From positions 1 to 46,417 of the IMG/VR virus record IMGVR_UViG_3300036760_000304: 46,417 nt of DNA, one strand, 5' to 3'. This document shows positions 17,101 to 46,417 of this stretch, piece by piece. The stretch is from a virus. Numbering within the stretch: the stretch's first letter is position 1; each line of letters opens with the position of its first letter. Under the pieces are notes generated by a model, which saw nothing but the letters and a program-made list of their open reading frames with translations, was not told the DNA's origin and ran no database searches. Position numbers and translations under genes: made by a program.

Positions 17101-18904
17101 GCAAGCCATGGAGGCGGCAGTCGCGAGCGGTGACGTCGAAAAGCAGGCCGCGGCTATCGGCCACATCGGAGACGCCTGGCGGGCCGCGCACGCGGACGCA
17201 TCGACCGCAGGATCCGCGCAGCGCGCCATCCTCGACGAAACGAAGCAGCGGGCCGACGCAGTGGCCTCCAGCCTCGGGGCGGTGTTTAAGGGCATCGAAG
17301 TCTCGAAGGCGCTGGACCTCCACATCCGCCTCCTCGATTTCGAGGCCGTCCGCGCCGACATCGAGGCCATCCACGAGCAGGTTCTCGGCTTCCAGCAACT
17401 CGGCGTCAAGGTCCCGGTCGAGCTGCAGCTCATCGACCAGGGAATCCCCGACAAGGTGCGCGACCTCTTCTCGAAGGCCACGGCCCCGATCCATGCGGAG
17501 CTCGAGGCGGGCGCCGTCACCAAGGCCGAAGCCGACTACGCCCGGCTGATAGACACGCTGCGGGCGCTCGGGATCCTCGAGCTTGTCCCCATGGTGGACC
17601 TGCGGAAGTTCGACAAGGACCTGAAAGAGGCCAGGGCGCGCGTGGCCACGGCCGGCGAGCAGGCGGCGGCGGCCTTCAACAAGAGCATGCAGGGCATCAC
17701 GCTCGACGCCGTGTCCGGTGGCTTCGCCGCTGCGCTCGGTGGGATCTTGGGCCAGGCCACGAGCTTCGGCGACGCCATGAAGAAGGTGTTTCAGACCTTC
17801 GTCGACGATGCGATCAAGCAGCTCGCGCGGTTGGCGGCTGCTCAGGCGCTATTCGCCATCGGCGGGCTTTTCAGTCCCGGGAGCTTTCTCAAGAAATTCT
17901 TCCAGGACGCGAGCGGCCTCCACTCGACGGCCGTCCTCCCGCCCGAGAACAAGCCGACCGCGACACCGCTGCCCGTCCCGCAGCTCAAGCCCATCGTCGC
18001 GCCGGTGCCTCTCAACGTCCCGATCCTGCCGAGCGTCACCGGCCCCATCGCCGTCAACCTCGCCTTCTCGACGCCCGACACGGTGACGCTGCCGGCGCCG
18101 CGCGCCAAGGTTCTGCCTTTCACGCCATTGAGCGTGCAGCCGTCGCTGAGACTCGCCGCCAGCATCGCGGCTCTCGTCGTGACGCCGCACCTTGCGCTTA
18201 AAGACGCCGCAGCCGTTCCCGTCGTCCCGAAGTTTCACGTGGAACAGGTTCGGCAGGCTCTCGTCGCCAAGAGCCCCGCCATCGAGCTATCGGGCGTGCC
18301 CGAGTCCATCGACATGGACGTGCCTCCGTTCGTGCTGCGTGGCGAGCCTGACGCGATGCGCCTGGCCGTCCCTGACTTCGTTCTCGACCGCAAGCCGCAA
18401 GTGCCGCGGCTCGTGGCTCCGCAGTTGGCTGCACCGGCCAAGGCCGGGCCGGAGTCCGCCTCGACCCGGGCGACGCTCCGTGTCCCGCCGGTGCAGCCTT
18501 CTATGTTCGAGACGGCGCCCTTGCAGGCGAGTCTTCAGCAAGCGTCTCGCGCCTTCGCCGCGACTCGTACGGGCCCGGCGCCGGGTAGCGGGAGACTTCC
18601 AGCCCTTCCGATCCTGCCCGGGCCGGGGCCGCTGCCGCTCCAACGCCGGGAAGAGGTGCCCGCGACTGCGGCCTTCCTTCGCGAGCAGATCGGCCGGGCG
18701 CGGGAAACGATCCGCAACCCAACCTTCGCATCGAACCTTCAGATCGAGCCGGGGTCGGATCTCATCAACCGCTTCTCGCCGCGCGGGCAGCTCTCCGGCG
18801 CCCAGCCGATCACGGTCATCACGCCCGACTCTCAGTCCATCGCTCAGAGCATCCGCCGCGGCGAACTCGGGCGACAGCTCCGCAAGCAGAGGGGGCGGTT
18901 CTGA
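14156..18904 (+). CDS. tape measure protein
   Basis: 1582 aa from GTG 14156; the longest gene, directly after the chaperone. N-terminal part has Pro/Val repeats (PPIVVPP type) and an exact tandem repeat at about residues 100-165. A hydrophobic segment at about 348-368 (ASLGFVAGGVGLAVGALVLP) precedes the conserved tape measure region (DEAILASGALLAQVG, LQRLGISIDDS, ADTLTGAVARLKNQWSDM). Long helical heptad-rich stretches follow, then a second hydrophobic Gly/Ala region at about 1180-1240 and a Pro/Val-rich C-terminus. The protein sets tail length and is expelled on DNA injection. By the known rule of about 1.5 angstroms per residue, the tail would be roughly 230-250 nm, an inference. Confidence 0.93.
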   Translation: MADETLSLVLRVLGVQQAARDTEQAAVSIEGLGAAALAQQASIAGLDASVLKLGTDLKRLDAPVKVPSIVIPPVTLPPIVVPPVIVAPTVDAAGFEAARTRILGELGLDVSVPVTPAVDVAGLEATKARILGELGLDVSVPVTPAVDVAGLEATKARILGELGLGPVVIPVAPITIPPIPAIHVPPVVIPPIKVPPIVVPPLAVQQAGALKLSVSPVVDQAALDAARAKIKFLGAAVPPIFIPTKLDPTAEAQLKRLGAQAAEVKLLADATSAAVAKIGSGPVGTQNVTALRNQIAALEAAAEPTRLRGQLKALQAELGGVERAAAGISGGQLKGLFGALEGGAGSLIGKLASLGFVAGGVGLAVGALVLPFKHMVDEASASEDAIRRFDVALGSLGQFSTKASADFQAFASALQATTTQSDEAILASGALLAQVGRLGGAELKRAVQGAVELSAVLGVDLQTSTLQLTKAAEGNVESLQRLGISIDDSIPKGERLAAVLAKVEANLGGSAAAQADTLTGAVARLKNQWSDMAETLGKPLIVPLAGLFQAINAFLLFKNIAGGATSDARQQVDKLAADMIRLGESGRPLARLGADLKTIERLRLPTIELAFKKGNAEEILSVLEAIRSKRLEVQAEQVFPAIDTGPLDRLLAQGEKALRVRVEFEKGTIDEQIKSLETALRPRVLPIAFESDLKTLDGILRGIESRRAIIPVSANVEELRRQVDAEIARGGLAIHLPVLADLKADIPHDLAKTRELAFTLRATVTTQGPLIPTDQLDKEATQAADIFKQLANDTSQAGAVARDVVAGILTELTKLRGKRSILEFEAPALGPLQDAIDKVVLLRAELDHKPPPLLLHADATDVTRAVALLASGFGTLVSGGKASAEQLRGQFDTISGAIDAAEKAVPQLTGQMEALRASLAKQAGITMPVRLDLEAAKRDGQALAQLAVTLFQDIGKNPVELLTFKDQAAAVKDAAAGAALLQQAMEAAVASGDVEKQAAAIGHIGDAWRAAHADASTAGSAQRAILDETKQRADAVASSLGAVFKGIEVSKALDLHIRLLDFEAVRADIEAIHEQVLGFQQLGVKVPVELQLIDQGIPDKVRDLFSKATAPIHAELEAGAVTKAEADYARLIDTLRALGILELVPMVDLRKFDKDLKEARARVATAGEQAAAAFNKSMQGITLDAVSGGFAAALGGILGQATSFGDAMKKVFQTFVDDAIKQLARLAAAQALFAIGGLFSPGSFLKKFFQDASGLHSTAVLPPENKPTATPLPVPQLKPIVAPVPLNVPILPSVTGPIAVNLAFSTPDTVTLPAPRAKVLPFTPLSVQPSLRLAASIAALVVTPHLALKDAAAVPVVPKFHVEQVRQALVAKSPAIELSGVPESIDMDVPPFVLRGEPDAMRLAVPDFVLDRKPQVPRLVAPQLAAPAKAGPESASTRATLRVPPVQPSMFETAPLQASLQQASRAFAATRTGPAPGSGRLPALPILPGPGPLPLQRREEVPATAAFLREQIGRARETIRNPTFASNLQIEPGSDLINRFSPRGQLSGAQPITVITPDSQSIAQSIRRGELGRQLRKQRGRF
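14455..14649 (+). repeat. 84-base exact tandem repeat, about 2.3 copies, in tape measure gene
   Basis: Units begin at 14455, 14539 and 14623 (AAGGATTCTCGGCGAACTCG). The two complete units are the same apart from bases at the first boundary, and the third is cut after about 27 bases. Each unit encodes 28 residues, ARILGELGLDVSVPV then TPAVDVAGLEATK, so the reading frame is kept. Near-perfect identity indicates a recent duplication. Confidence 0.9.
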
Positions 18905-19764
18905 TGGCCTACGTCACTCAGTCCAGGCTCGTCTTCTGCTACGACAACGCCATCACGCCCGACAACGTGACCGGCGTGACGCTCACGAACATCACGGCCG
19001 ACGGCAACTTCCCGGCCGAGAACCTGAAGTATGCCGACCCGAAGCTCAAGTTGATGACGAGGGGCACGAGTGGCAGCGACCGGGTCATCCAGTTCGATCT
19101 GGCCTCGCCGTCCGTCGCCTTCGCCTGCCTCGGCGTCTGCGCCCACAACCTCATCTCGCGGGGATACGAGACGGTCAAGGTCGAGTATTCAAGCGATGGC
19201 ACGAGCTGGACGAACGTCGGCACCGCCACGGTGTCACTCCTCGACTTCACGGGTGTCACGGGCCAAGATTGCAATTTCTTCGTGCGCTTCGGAGCGGTGG
19301 GCGGGCCGACGCACTGGCGGGTCACGTTCGGTATGGCCTCGGCCTCGGACACCCGCGCCGCCTTTGAGATCGGCATGATCTTCCTCGGCCCCATCTACGA
19401 GGTCGCCAAGAACGCCACGGACGGCGCGATCTTCACGACGATCGAAGTCCCGATGGAGTTCTCGGAGAGTTTGGGTGGGGACAAGTGGCTGGCGCCCGGT
19501 CCCGCCAAGTACCGCGAGGAACTGGAGGTCTCGTTCTCGCGCCTTACGCACATAGACTACAAGACCATCGCCTGGAAGATAGGCGAGCGGAACGCCCGAA
19601 AGATCGTCGGCGTGATTCCGCCCGAGCTCGTCCAGAACCAGATGCCGAGCGGCAATCAGCACTTCTTCGGCTACCTCGACAGGCCGGTGTCGAATGCCAG
19701 AAGCGGCTTCGCATCCACGAATCACCGCTACGACCTGACCCTGCACCTGACGGGAGCCACATGA
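18904..19764 (+). CDS. distal tail-like protein with discoidin-like beta domain
   Basis: 286 aa from ATG 18904, overlapping the tape measure stop. N-terminal half resembles a discoidin-type sandwich often seen in phage tail proteins (NFPAENLKYADPKLKLMTRG, DRVIQFDL, VKVEYSSDGTSWTNVG, HWRVTFG). C-terminal half has the strand LEVSFSRLTHIDYKTIAW. First gene after the tape measure, where distal tail proteins lie. It probably forms the ring connecting tube to tip. Confidence 0.65.
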   Translation: MAYVTQSRLVFCYDNAITPDNVTGVTLTNITADGNFPAENLKYADPKLKLMTRGTSGSDRVIQFDLASPSVAFACLGVCAHNLISRGYETVKVEYSSDGTSWTNVGTATVSLLDFTGVTGQDCNFFVRFGAVGGPTHWRVTFGMASASDTRAAFEIGMIFLGPIYEVAKNATDGAIFTTIEVPMEFSESLGGDKWLAPGPAKYREELEVSFSRLTHIDYKTIAWKIGERNARKIVGVIPPELVQNQMPSGNQHFFGYLDRPVSNARSGFASTNHRYDLTLHLTGAT

Positions 19765-20330
19765 AGCCGCGCCGCATGGGCTGGGTGCCCGCTCGTTGCG
19801 TACTGATCGGATTGATGCTGGCGCTCTGTGCTGGGGCGGCACGGGCGGCAGACGTGACCTTCCTGATGAAGACTGGCCTCGGCGATGAGCAGACCTCGCT
19901 CCAGGTGATCGCCCATGCACCCAATGTCATGGCGATACAGATCGCGGTCGAGAACCCGGCTGGTGACGATACGCTGCTCGCACTGACTGAGCAGAGCCTT
20001 CCAACCGGCTGGGCCGATCTCTTTCAGGATGCGGGGTGGCGTATCGGCGGATTCTTTTGTCCAGCCACCAGGCGCTGGCACAGCGACTCATTTCCGGCCA
20101 ACCTGGACGAGCTGCACTACTGGCCCGCCAGCTATATCGGAACAGCGATGCATTGGAATCGCCCGCGGCTGGGAGTGGGAATCGCAGCGTGTGTTCTCGG
20201 CGGCCTGATAACCGGCACCGTCGATGTCGAGTACGCGAACTACACGCCGACGTGCGCCAGCACCACGGATCTCGGTGTCGATCCGCCCATGCGCGCGAGC
20301 TGGTCGAACTTCAAGGAGATTTACCGATGA
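19761..20330 (+). CDS. exported protein with signal peptide in tail module, 189 aa
   Basis: Start at ATG 19761, overlapping the previous stop. The N-terminus is a clear Sec signal peptide: Arg-rich start, CVLIGLMLALCAGA core, and ARA before ADVTF. The mature part is beta-rich and has three cysteines, with no membrane segment at the end. The C-terminus WSNFKEIYR resembles WGAIKELYR of the next gene, so the two are probably diverged paralogues. Mature N-terminal strands recall cohesin-like sandwiches, a weak similarity. Purpose of an exported protein coded among tail genes is unknown; the stop overlaps the next start. Confidence 0.75.
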   Translation: MKPRRMGWVPARCVLIGLMLALCAGAARAADVTFLMKTGLGDEQTSLQVIAHAPNVMAIQIAVENPAGDDTLLALTEQSLPTGWADLFQDAGWRIGGFFCPATRRWHSDSFPANLDELHYWPASYIGTAMHWNRPRLGVGIAACVLGGLITGTVDVEYANYTPTCASTTDLGVDPPMRASWSNFKEIYR

Positions 20331-20830
20331 GGTTGCAGTCGCTTCTCGCGATCCTGCTGCTTGTCGCGCCCAGCGCGCGCGCCGCAGAAGTGACCATGAC
20401 CTTCGACCCGGTGACCTGGGGGCCGGGAGCAACCGACAAGGTCTTTTTCCATGTCGTGAATCACACGCAGGAGCACATGATCGGCGTCGATTTCATCGTC
20501 TACCACCCGGCCTCTCTCGAGTTTCAGGGCATGGGCGTCTCGATCCCCAACTGGACCATACAGCCCGTTTTGGCCGACACCATTACCGGTTTCATCGGCT
20601 ACACGATAGACCTCCAAGCGCCGCCGAGGTTGGATGGATCCATCGCATATACGAACTCCGGCAACTCAATCGCGTTCTGCAATCCGCACATCCGAGCCGT
20701 GCGCTTGCGGGCAGGCTATCCCCAGGGCGATTTCACGACAGAGATTACCTCGCTCTGCTCTCCGACCGATGTTCTCGACGACAGGGCGCCCTTTCGGGCC
20801 TGGGGAGCGATCAAGGAGCTGTACCGTTGA
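20327..20830 (+). CDS. exported protein with signal peptide in tail module, 167 aa
   Basis: ATG 20327 overlaps the previous stop. Signal peptide MRLQSLLAILLLVAPSARA, then AEVTMTFDP. The mature part has a pattern of cohesin-like beta sandwiches (VFFHVVNHTQEHMIGVDFIVY, then HPASLEFQGMGVSIP). Two cysteines near the C-terminus could bridge. Ends in KELYR like its upstream partner. The likely location is periplasm or cell surface, after export by the host. Coupled to the next gene by TTGA. Confidence 0.75.
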   Translation: MRLQSLLAILLLVAPSARAAEVTMTFDPVTWGPGATDKVFFHVVNHTQEHMIGVDFIVYHPASLEFQGMGVSIPNWTIQPVLADTITGFIGYTIDLQAPPRLDGSIAYTNSGNSIAFCNPHIRAVRLRAGYPQGDFTTEITSLCSPTDVLDDRAPFRAWGAIKELYR

Positions 20831-21300
20831 CGCTGCACGTCCCGATCCGCACCCTCTGGGTCGCAACGCTCTACGACGGCGACGGGCCAGACGCGCCCAT
20901 CATGGAACGGTGGACTTTCTCGAACTTCCTGACCGCGCTCGGCGAGGCGCATCTCGCGGCACGCCAATGCGCGAGCCCGCCGGCCGCCATGTCACATCTC
21001 GCGGTCGGCACGGGCACAGGGCAGACCGCGGCCTCGACCACGCTTGCCAATGAGATCGCGAGGGTGGCCCTCGACTCGGGATACCCGCAGCAGGGGACCG
21101 GGGCCGCCGACAACGAGGTTCTATACCTGGCGACCCTTCCGGTCGGTACGGGGACCGGCACGCTGACCGAGTTCGCGATATTCAATGCCTCATCCGGCGG
21201 CACCATGCTCAACTACGCCTCCGGCTTCGCTCCGAAGATCAAGGGCGCGGGACAGAGCCTCGGGATCGGGCCAGTCTACATGCGCCTGGGGGTCACATGA
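20827..21300 (+). CDS. tail protein of baseplate/fibre type, 157 aa
   Basis: TTG 20827 overlaps the previous stop TGA and has AAGGAG eight bases upstream; no ATG or GTG is available nearby. Two glycine-threonine clusters (LAVGTGTGQTAAS, LPVGTGTGTLTEFAIF) and the strand GGTMLNYASGF are typical of small phage fibre or baseplate proteins with beta-prism folds. It follows the two exported proteins and precedes small fibre-region genes. Confidence 0.7.
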   Translation: MTLHVPIRTLWVATLYDGDGPDAPIMERWTFSNFLTALGEAHLAARQCASPPAAMSHLAVGTGTGQTAASTTLANEIARVALDSGYPQQGTGAADNEVLYLATLPVGTGTGTLTEFAIFNASSGGTMLNYASGFAPKIKGAGQSLGIGPVYMRLGVT

Positions 21301-38928: not shown

Positions 38929-39800
38929 CCGAAACGAAGTTCTACAAGGTCCTGGTCGACGGCAAGAGCGCACACGGCGGCACGATGGAATGGCCGCTGC
39001 CGAACGGCAAGCCGGGTGCGTGGGTCGAGGTCGATGGCCCGCTCGCGATGTGCGAGCGTGGGATTCACCTCACCTCGTCGCCATTCTCCTGGTACAAGCG
39101 CGGCTGCGCGATCTACGAAACCGAGCACGAGGGCCAGCACGGCGAAGTGAACGAGAACAAGATCTGCGTGCGTCGCGCGCGGCTCATGCGGCAAGTCGAG
39201 TTCCCAAAGCCGTGGCAGCGAGTCGAGACATTCCTCGACACGATCCCAGGCATCCAGTGGTTAAAGCCGGACGGTGAGCCGGAGGAAGCGTGGAGTCTGC
39301 ATCTTGCGCCAGCTTTGGCTGCGGCTTGGGATGCGGCTCGGGCTGCGGCTTGGGATGCGGCTCGGGCTGCGGCTCGGGCTGCGGCTTGGGATGCGGCTTG
39401 GGCTGCGGCTTGGGATGTGGCTCGGGCTGCGGCTTGGGATGCGGCTCGGGCTGCGGCTGGGGCTGCGGCTCGGGATGTGGCTCGGGCTGCGGCTTGGGAT
39501 GCGGCTTGGGATGCGGCTTGGGGTGCGGCTCGGGCTGCGGCTCGGGCTGCGGCTGGGGATGCGGCTCGGGGTGCGGCTCGGGCTGCGGCTGGGGATGCGG
39601 CTCGGGCTGCGGCTGGGGATGCGGCTCGGGCTGCGGCTGGGGATGCGGAACTCATGGCCATCGTTGAGCTCTGCCGCGACACCGACCTCGATCCGAAGCA
39701 CATCGCACACGCCGAGGCGCGGTGGCGGGTGTGGACCAAAGGCTATGGGCTCTACTGCGACGCGAACGGGAAGCTGTTCGTCTGTGGGGTGCAGACGTGA
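38925..39800 (+). CDS. protein with N-terminal conserved domain and long Ala-Trp-Asp/Arg repeat
   Basis: 291 aa from ATG 38925. N-terminal 110 residues form a domain (FYKVLVDGKSAHGGTMEWPL, LAMCERGIHLTS) known to me from other phages ahead of alanine-rich repeats (DUF7666-like, from memory). Residues 132-242 are a run of four-residue units such as AAAW, DAAR, DAAW. The last ~45 residues (VELCRDTDLDPKHIAHAEAR) are ordinary. The repeat could form a long helix with a Trp/Asp/Arg stripe. Function unknown. Confidence 0.75.
   Translation: MTETKFYKVLVDGKSAHGGTMEWPLPNGKPGAWVEVDGPLAMCERGIHLTSSPFSWYKRGCAIYETEHEGQHGEVNENKICVRRARLMRQVEFPKPWQRVETFLDTIPGIQWLKPDGEPEEAWSLHLAPALAAAWDAARAAAWDAARAAARAAAWDAAWAAAWDVARAAAWDAARAAAGAAARDVARAAAWDAAWDAAWGAARAAARAAAGDAARGAARAAAGDAARAAAGDAARAAAGDAELMAIVELCRDTDLDPKHIAHAEARWRVWTKGYGLYCDANGKLFVCGVQT
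39318..39650 (+). repeat. short-period coding repeat (GCGGCT TGGGAT type)
   Basis: About 330 bases of interlaced GCGGCTTGGGATGCGGCTCG-like units, period 12 with variants, all in frame. The codons alternate between GCG GCT, TGG/CGG/GGG and GAT/GCT. Unit number probably varies by slippage. Confidence 0.9.
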
Positions 39801-45629: not shown

Positions 45630-45646
45630 CCCGGGAGGTTCCTTCC

Positions 45647-45765
45647 GTGAAACTCGCCAAGCTCATAATCGCGCTGGCGCTTCTCGTCTGCGCCTTTCCC
45701 GTCCACGCCTCCGACGTCTCGCTGGGCGCCGGTGCGGCGTACTTCACGCAGAGCAAGGGTACGGT
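45647..45765 (+). repeat. 119-base direct repeat, copy of 46299-46417
   Basis: Identical to the last 119 bases of the window. It covers the start codon, signal peptide and first 39 codons of the exported protein. Confidence 0.95.
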
Positions 45766-46036
45766 GCCCTACATCGAGGGCGCGTACTCGTTCACGGCCC
45801 GCAAGTCAGCGTCCGTGACCTGGGCCCGAGACGATCAGACGAACCACGCCTTCGGGGCTCTCGACCTGAGAGTCGGTGAAGCGCCCTTCGTCCTCGGGAA
45901 CATCTACCTACGACTCGGCGGCGGAGCCTACTGGCAGAACTTCGACGACTGGAAGGCCGAGCTCGTGTCGGGCGTCGGTGTCGCCTGCACGCAGAGGCTG
46001 GCCGCGGCCGTCGCCAACACGCCGCCGACGCCGTAG
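45647..46036 (+). CDS. exported beta-rich protein, full N-terminus but altered C-terminus
   Basis: 129 aa from GTG 45647 with GGGAGG upstream. Signal peptide LAKLIIALALLVCAFPVHA, then SDVSLGAGAAYF; strands typical of small outer-membrane barrels. From 45990 the sequence stops matching the native C-terminus (see 1-234) and instead resembles the 3' end of the gene at 45321. The junction looks like an unequal exchange. This copy lacks the last third of the barrel and may be non-functional. Confidence 0.72.
   Translation: MKLAKLIIALALLVCAFPVHASDVSLGAGAAYFTQSKGTVPYIEGAYSFTARKSASVTWARDDQTNHAFGALDLRVGEAPFVLGNIYLRLGGGAYWQNFDDWKAELVSGVGVACTQRLAAAVANTPPTP
45878..45989 (+). repeat. 112-base direct repeat, copy of 1-112
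   Basis: Identical to the first 112 bases of the window. Together with the 119-base repeat it brackets 112 bases (45766-45877) that are absent from the split copy at the window ends. Confidence 0.95.
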
Positions 46037-46294: not shown

Positions 46295-46298
46295 AACC

Positions 46299-46417
46299 GT
46301 GAAACTCGCCAAGCTCATAATCGCGCTGGCGCTTCTCGTCTGCGCCTTTCCCGTCCACGCCTCCGACGTCTCGCTGGGCGCCGGTGCGGCGTACTTCACG
46401 CAGAGCAAGGGTACGGT
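46299..46417 (+). CDS. exported beta-rich protein, N-terminal part (3' end cut by window edge)
   Basis: GTG 46299 with GGGAGG upstream; 39 codons with the same signal peptide as 45647, open to the window end. Probably continues, after about 112 missing bases, into 1-234. A direct join of end to start would shift the frame, so the ends do not simply close. Confidence 0.75.
   Translation, partial: MKLAKLIIALALLVCAFPVHASDVSLGAGAAYFTQSKGT

Follow-up and report, generated by a model that had tools for sequence, protein, structure and literature searches.

Two adjacent genes in the tail operon of a phage encode small proteins that combine a predicted Sec signal peptide with a ten-residue C-terminal tag, and the same tag ends signal-peptide-bearing proteins of several bacterial phyla. 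We estimate a probability of roughly 70% that the two proteins are exported by Sec and sorted by means of this host tag to the surface or the outside of the infected cell, probably in connection with type IX secretion (T9SS), and that the genes, called A and B hereafter, are cargo ("moron"-like) genes of the tail operon whose products are not tail parts. The whole stretch of DNA that was analysed, 46,417 nt in length, is referred to as the window.

Two signal-peptide genes among tail genes

The first-pass annotation had described two adjacent genes of the tail module with Sec signal peptides and a common KE[IL]YR ending, and both ORFs are present as described. The genes and their predicted signal peptides are:

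18904–19764, plus strand: gene between the tape measure gene and gene A, with a 4-base overlap with gene A; match to phrog_8610 (unknown function), E 3e-5
19761–20330, plus strand: gene A (P0001), predicted exported protein of 189 aa with C-terminal tag (sequence, rule-based test)
19761–19847, plus strand: predicted Sec signal peptide of gene A, residues 1–29, ARA-A cleavage (sequence, rule-based test)
20327–20830, plus strand: gene B (P0002), predicted exported protein of 167 aa with C-terminal tag (sequence, rule-based test)
20327–20383, plus strand: predicted Sec signal peptide of gene B, residues 1–19, ARA-A cleavage (sequence, rule-based test)
20827–21300, plus strand: tail-collar-fibre-like gene, coupled to gene B; PF12571 above the Pfam cut-off

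Genes A and B are joined by a four-base overlap (ATGA), and the 3' end of gene B is in turn overlapped by the tail-collar-fibre-like gene, which starts with TTG at 20827. The surroundings consist of tail genes, namely a tape-measure-like ORF (weak match), the collar-fibre gene and a minor tail protein (E 8e-19). In both genes the GC content by codon position is that of coding sequence, with a GC3 of 0.74 in gene A and 0.78 in gene B. The flanking genes show a higher GC3 (0.88 directly before and 0.84 directly after the pair), and the lower values of genes A and B might be compatible with a recent gain.

Both N-termini show a basic n-region, a hydrophobic core and an AxA site, with ARA-ADVT at the cleavage site of gene A and ARA-AEVT at that of gene B. 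The predicted signal peptides read MKPRRMGWVPARCVLIGLMLALCAGAARA/A in gene A and MRLQSLLAILLLVAPSARA/A in gene B, the slash marking the cleavage site. Both proteins thus passed the Sec-export test on n-, h- and c-region and AxA site, a simple rule that is crude and lenient. It is highly unlikely that they are virion (tail) proteins in which structural hydrophobic segments imitate signal peptides. Such a reading would fit the flanking tail genes and the translational coupling to them, and a tagged phage protein from another contig (L132) is lectin-like and weakly matches the virion structural family phrog_8510 (E 4e-4), but the signal peptides of A and B are regular in their n-h-c organisation and AxA sites, and the tag otherwise occurs on signal-peptide proteins of bacteria.

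Outside the signal peptide and the tag the kinship between genes A and B is weak (Z 1.8, about 5% of shuffles equally good). Neither P0001 nor P0002 was matched in Pfam (at E≤1), PHROGs, NCBIfam (even at E≤10), PADLOC or the PDB sequences. Relatives of both were also sought in viral contigs, together with those of two neighboring tail proteins, and in a phage collection, together with those of the gene at 18904, and none were found; P0002 was likewise unmatched in 20 genomes of one tagged phylum, in a search without positive control. The AlphaFold models of both proteins are unusable (pLDDT 36), and the mature part of gene B, which may or may not adopt the cohesin-like fold suggested for it, has neither a Pfam match at E≤1 nor a PDB sequence relative. 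Residues 138–156 of gene A (20172–20228) form a moderately hydrophobic stretch, GVGIAACVLGGLITGTVDV (mean 1.72), which may represent either a membrane helix or a pair of beta-strands.

The C-terminal tag on the two phage proteins

Regarding the C-termini, the following features overlap the ends of the two genes:

20298–20330, plus strand: C-terminal tag of gene A, SWSNFKEIYR-stop (divergent); rank 2 in the host-only profile, DNA pattern
20313–20318, plus strand: AAGGAG within the tag of gene A, Shine-Dalgarno-like, 8 nt 5' of the ATG of gene B
20798–20830, plus strand: C-terminal tag of gene B, AWGAIKELYR-stop (exact match to the strict motif); rank 1 in the host-only profile, DNA pattern
20813–20818, plus strand: AAGGAG within the tag of gene B, Shine-Dalgarno-like, 8 nt 5' of the TTG of the next gene

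The DNA pattern for KE[IL]YR-stop is found twice in the window as compared to no match in 100 shuffles, and a broader DNA pattern for the tag yielded exactly genes A and B, again with no match in 100 shuffles. The first-pass annotation did not remark on a Trp four residues further upstream of KE[IL]YR in both proteins, by which the ending can be assigned to a recurrent tag. Scored with a profile built from 96 host tails only, gene B reached 22.0 and gene A 5.6, while the third-best end reached -12.0, with genes B and A taking ranks 1 and 2 of the 957 ORF ends in the window. The score of gene A was reached by none of 83,109 ORF ends of shuffled windows, and it lies below every host tag, host tails scoring ≥30.5 owing to the way the set was built. 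Gene A has a divergent tag, with WS for WG, for which TWSLIKALYR at a bacterial locus (L047) gives a host precedent.

The shared ending is encoded by AAGGAG-ATT/CTG-TAC-CG, which raises the question whether it is a by-product at the DNA level, a ribosome-binding site read in frame as Lys-Glu. AAGGAG is indeed placed 8 nt before both downstream starts, and Glu before [IL]YR occurs in just one of the 96 host tags, so the Glu of the phage proteins, which in both genes derives from AAGGAG, was probably set by the ribosome-binding site; the phage tag seems to double as such a site. As an account of the ending as a whole we regard this as very improbable, since nothing in a ribosome-binding site dictates W, I/F, L/I, Y and R at set positions, the two ends rank highest in a profile derived exclusively from host proteins, and the codons used for the tag vary widely among host genes and other phage genes.

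The tag in bacterial and other phage genomes

The tag is defined by the motif [ST]WGxIKx[LF]YR-stop, ten residues at the exact C-terminus, and the tagged host genes give the consensus P-V-E-x-[ST]-[ST]-W-G-x-I-K-[AS]-L-Y-R. A scan of one genome per species (84,980 species) for the DNA pattern WGxIKx[LF]YR-stop identified at least 116 loci. Nearly all matches listed stem from Candidatus Eisenbacteria, Krumholzibacteriota, Latescibacterota and related metagenome-assembled genomes (MAGs), a taxonomic spread that represents a sample of mostly MAGs of uncertain completeness. Named groups among them are Eisenbacteria, Krumholzibacteriota, Latescibacterota, Zixiibacteriota, Cloacimonadota, Coatesbacteria, Aegiribacteria, Effluviviaceae and Gemmatimonadota, and the sole Bacillus locus among the matches listed is a frame of 16 residues.

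The tag is tightly linked to the stop codon. In 29 genomes the motif is followed 251 times by TRR and 25 times by a codon whose first base is A, C or G, although the latter codons are twelve times as many as TRR codons; the reversed pattern had no matches. Up to 39 exact copies were found in one genome (3.2 Mb). The codons of the tag differ at I, K, L, Y, R and stop, so that selection acts on the protein. The signal-peptide rule was passed by 60 of 62 tagged genes with complete 5' end as compared to 205 of 634 neighboring genes (Fisher p 6e-25). The mature parts are unrelated, with 96 tagged proteins falling into 51 clusters; a cleaved-adhesin/choice-of-anchor J domain and right-handed beta-helices are among them. 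In ten tagged proteins scanned, the tag region was covered by no NCBIfam or Pfam model, and we found no description of the tag in the open-access literature; one may exist elsewhere. Tagged host genes also occur in tandem arrays of homologues, four at L016 (96–3405) and three at L035 (4220–7584).

Other phages carry the tag as well. A scan of viral contigs for WGxIKx[LF]YR-stop yielded chance frames and three unrelated phage proteins, two with a signal peptide (L006, L007) and one with the tag and no clear signal peptide (L009). In a second viral scan we found a protein (L128/L132) in which the signal peptide MKRIVVVIALLCAVPALAQ and the tag TWGRIKTMYR accompany a Laminin_G_3 domain (E 4e-18), on a contig that encodes portal and head-tail-joining genes. 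Including the window, four phage contigs therefore encode signal-peptide proteins with the tag. The viral pattern with FR in place of YR gave chance frames only. Several further signal-peptide-like proteins are encoded near the tagged, lipoprotein-like gene of L006 (360–6293).

Regarding the host of the phage, within a set of 712 gene B showed its greatest similarity to a tagged protein from the MAG Gemmatimonadota DHS20C21 (E 3e-6), a match that depends on inclusion of the signal peptide and the tag. The same genome gave the sole terminase match found, with 30% identity over part of the protein. These resemblances may be taken as a hint to the host.

Relation to type IX secretion and possible role

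Within the set, tagged proteins have counterparts with homologous domains in which a T9SS/FlgD-like domain stands at the C-terminus instead of the tag. At L047 three neighboring genes share a common domain; the middle one carries the tag 12 residues past the shared part, and the outer two have a C-terminal domain that matches TIGR04183 (T9SS type A) above the cut-off. At L111 a tagged gene adjoins a homologue whose C-terminus is FlgD-like, with TIGR04183 below the cut-off, and the tagged proteins of Cloacimonadota at L042 and L099 have homologues at L028, L062 and L070 with TIGR04183 above the cut-off. The spacing of W, I, L and Y, which is that of a short amphipathic helix, would also suit a structural or stability element of exported proteins, for example one that closes the fold or binds the membrane, and the neighbors of tagged host genes, whose recurring families are mainly of T9SS type and beta-helices, yielded no new candidate for a machinery that reads the tag. 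We consider such a purely structural element improbable, as the tag is placed exactly at the C-terminus, recurs on proteins whose mature parts are unrelated, and substitutes for a known sorting domain on homologous domains.

TIGR04183 is present in all ten tagged genomes tested (36–148 matches each), and SprA_N in 25 of 30 tagged genomes as compared to none of 14 controls. In the five genomes where SprA_N was not matched, one of them a single-contig chromosome (G020), the PorU model was matched throughout and above the cut-off in two, many of the weaker PorU matches covering the C-terminal domain only. The reader of the tag is most likely T9SS or an adjacent pathway, though all these phyla may simply share T9SS. 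Exosortase was found above the cut-off in 20 of 30 tagged genomes; as reader of the tag it was set aside, with no match in the tag-rich genomes G013, G014 and G021, MAGs that may be incomplete.

Among known C-terminal signals, the T9SS type A domain resembles the tag in that it accompanies a Sec signal peptide on diverse exported proteins of the same genomes. However, that domain is beta-structured and about 70–80 residues long, whereas the tag, at about ten residues, is not matched by any T9SS model; on P0001 and P0002, TIGR04183 gave no match even at E≤10. The short T9SS signals of Prevotella intermedia likewise are shortened C-terminal signals on Sec-exported cargo, but they comprise 40–55 residues in three beta-strands and keep the motifs B, D and E (PMC11969387), strands and motifs that are absent from the tag. 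PEP-CTERM/exosortase, GlyGly-CTERM/rhombosortase and MYXO-CTERM/myxosortase also use a short C-terminal region on exported proteins with unrelated mature parts, in which a signature is combined with a membrane helix and a basic cluster (PMC1569441, PMC3237569, PMC11980579). The tag is not of this kind: a transmembrane-like segment (19-residue window >1.6, Kyte-Doolittle) was found in the last 45 residues of none of the 96 host proteins and of neither phage protein. We see about even odds that the tag is an undescribed minimal sorting signal of several T9SS-bearing phyla, which is equivalent to and exchangeable for the domain of 70–80 residues and by which the phages of these bacteria bring their own proteins to the host surface or beyond it.

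The first-pass annotation had proposed delivery of both proteins to the envelope or the outside of the infected cell, and this gains support from the match of their C-termini to the tag on exported proteins of candidate hosts. We infer that the host of the phage is among the tag-bearing bacteria, that the tag is a sorting signal and that T9SS reads it. Judged by the sequence features of well-known systems, Sec would export both proteins via the N-terminal signal peptide, with cleavage after ARA. From the comparison with the hosts, a pathway for C-terminal signals, most likely type IX secretion or a side branch of it, would then recognize the ten-residue tag, and the small mature domains would reach, or be fixed at, the cell surface or the outside. 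The surface of the infected cell may thereby be changed, for example with a receptor hidden from further phages. A final role of this type at the surface, such as superinfection exclusion, receptor masking or modification of the sugar coat, is proposed tentatively and with less confidence than the sorting itself.

Exported phage exclusion proteins, such as Llp of T5, Cor of phi80 and N15 and the lambda-type Lom, are small and bear signal peptides, and some are encoded beside tail genes; genes A and B are likewise small phage-encoded signal-peptide proteins. To our knowledge, none of these exclusion proteins carries a host C-terminal sorting tag. Searches of PADLOC and PHROGs with both proteins gave no match, in PHROGs no sequence relation to phage exclusion proteins was found, and we found no paper on phage proteins with T9SS signals in the open-access literature. 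If our reading is correct, a C-terminal sorting signal of about ten residues would be added for widespread, largely uncultured phyla, whose surface and secreted proteins could then be listed by a simple sequence rule, and phages would be seen to use a host tag for addressing their cargo. In addition, the tag may indicate likely hosts of otherwise unassignable phage contigs, and it raises the testable question whether a ten-residue tail can replace a whole T9SS domain.

Elsewhere in the window, a third signal-peptide protein of the phage, without tag and without Pfam match, is encoded at 45647–46036 (N-terminus MKLAKLIIALALLVCAFPVHA/SDVSLGAGAAYF...). Bases 1–112 are repeated at 45878–45989 and bases 46297–46417 at 45645–45765, and the gene at 45647 reads on sensibly once position 45877 is joined to base 1. 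Together this suggests that the genome measures about 45.9 kb and is circularly permuted or terminally redundant, the window carrying an additional piece at the end. A long stretch of low complexity at 39290–39700 is open in several frames on both strands, with AARAAAWDAA-type repeats on the plus strand.
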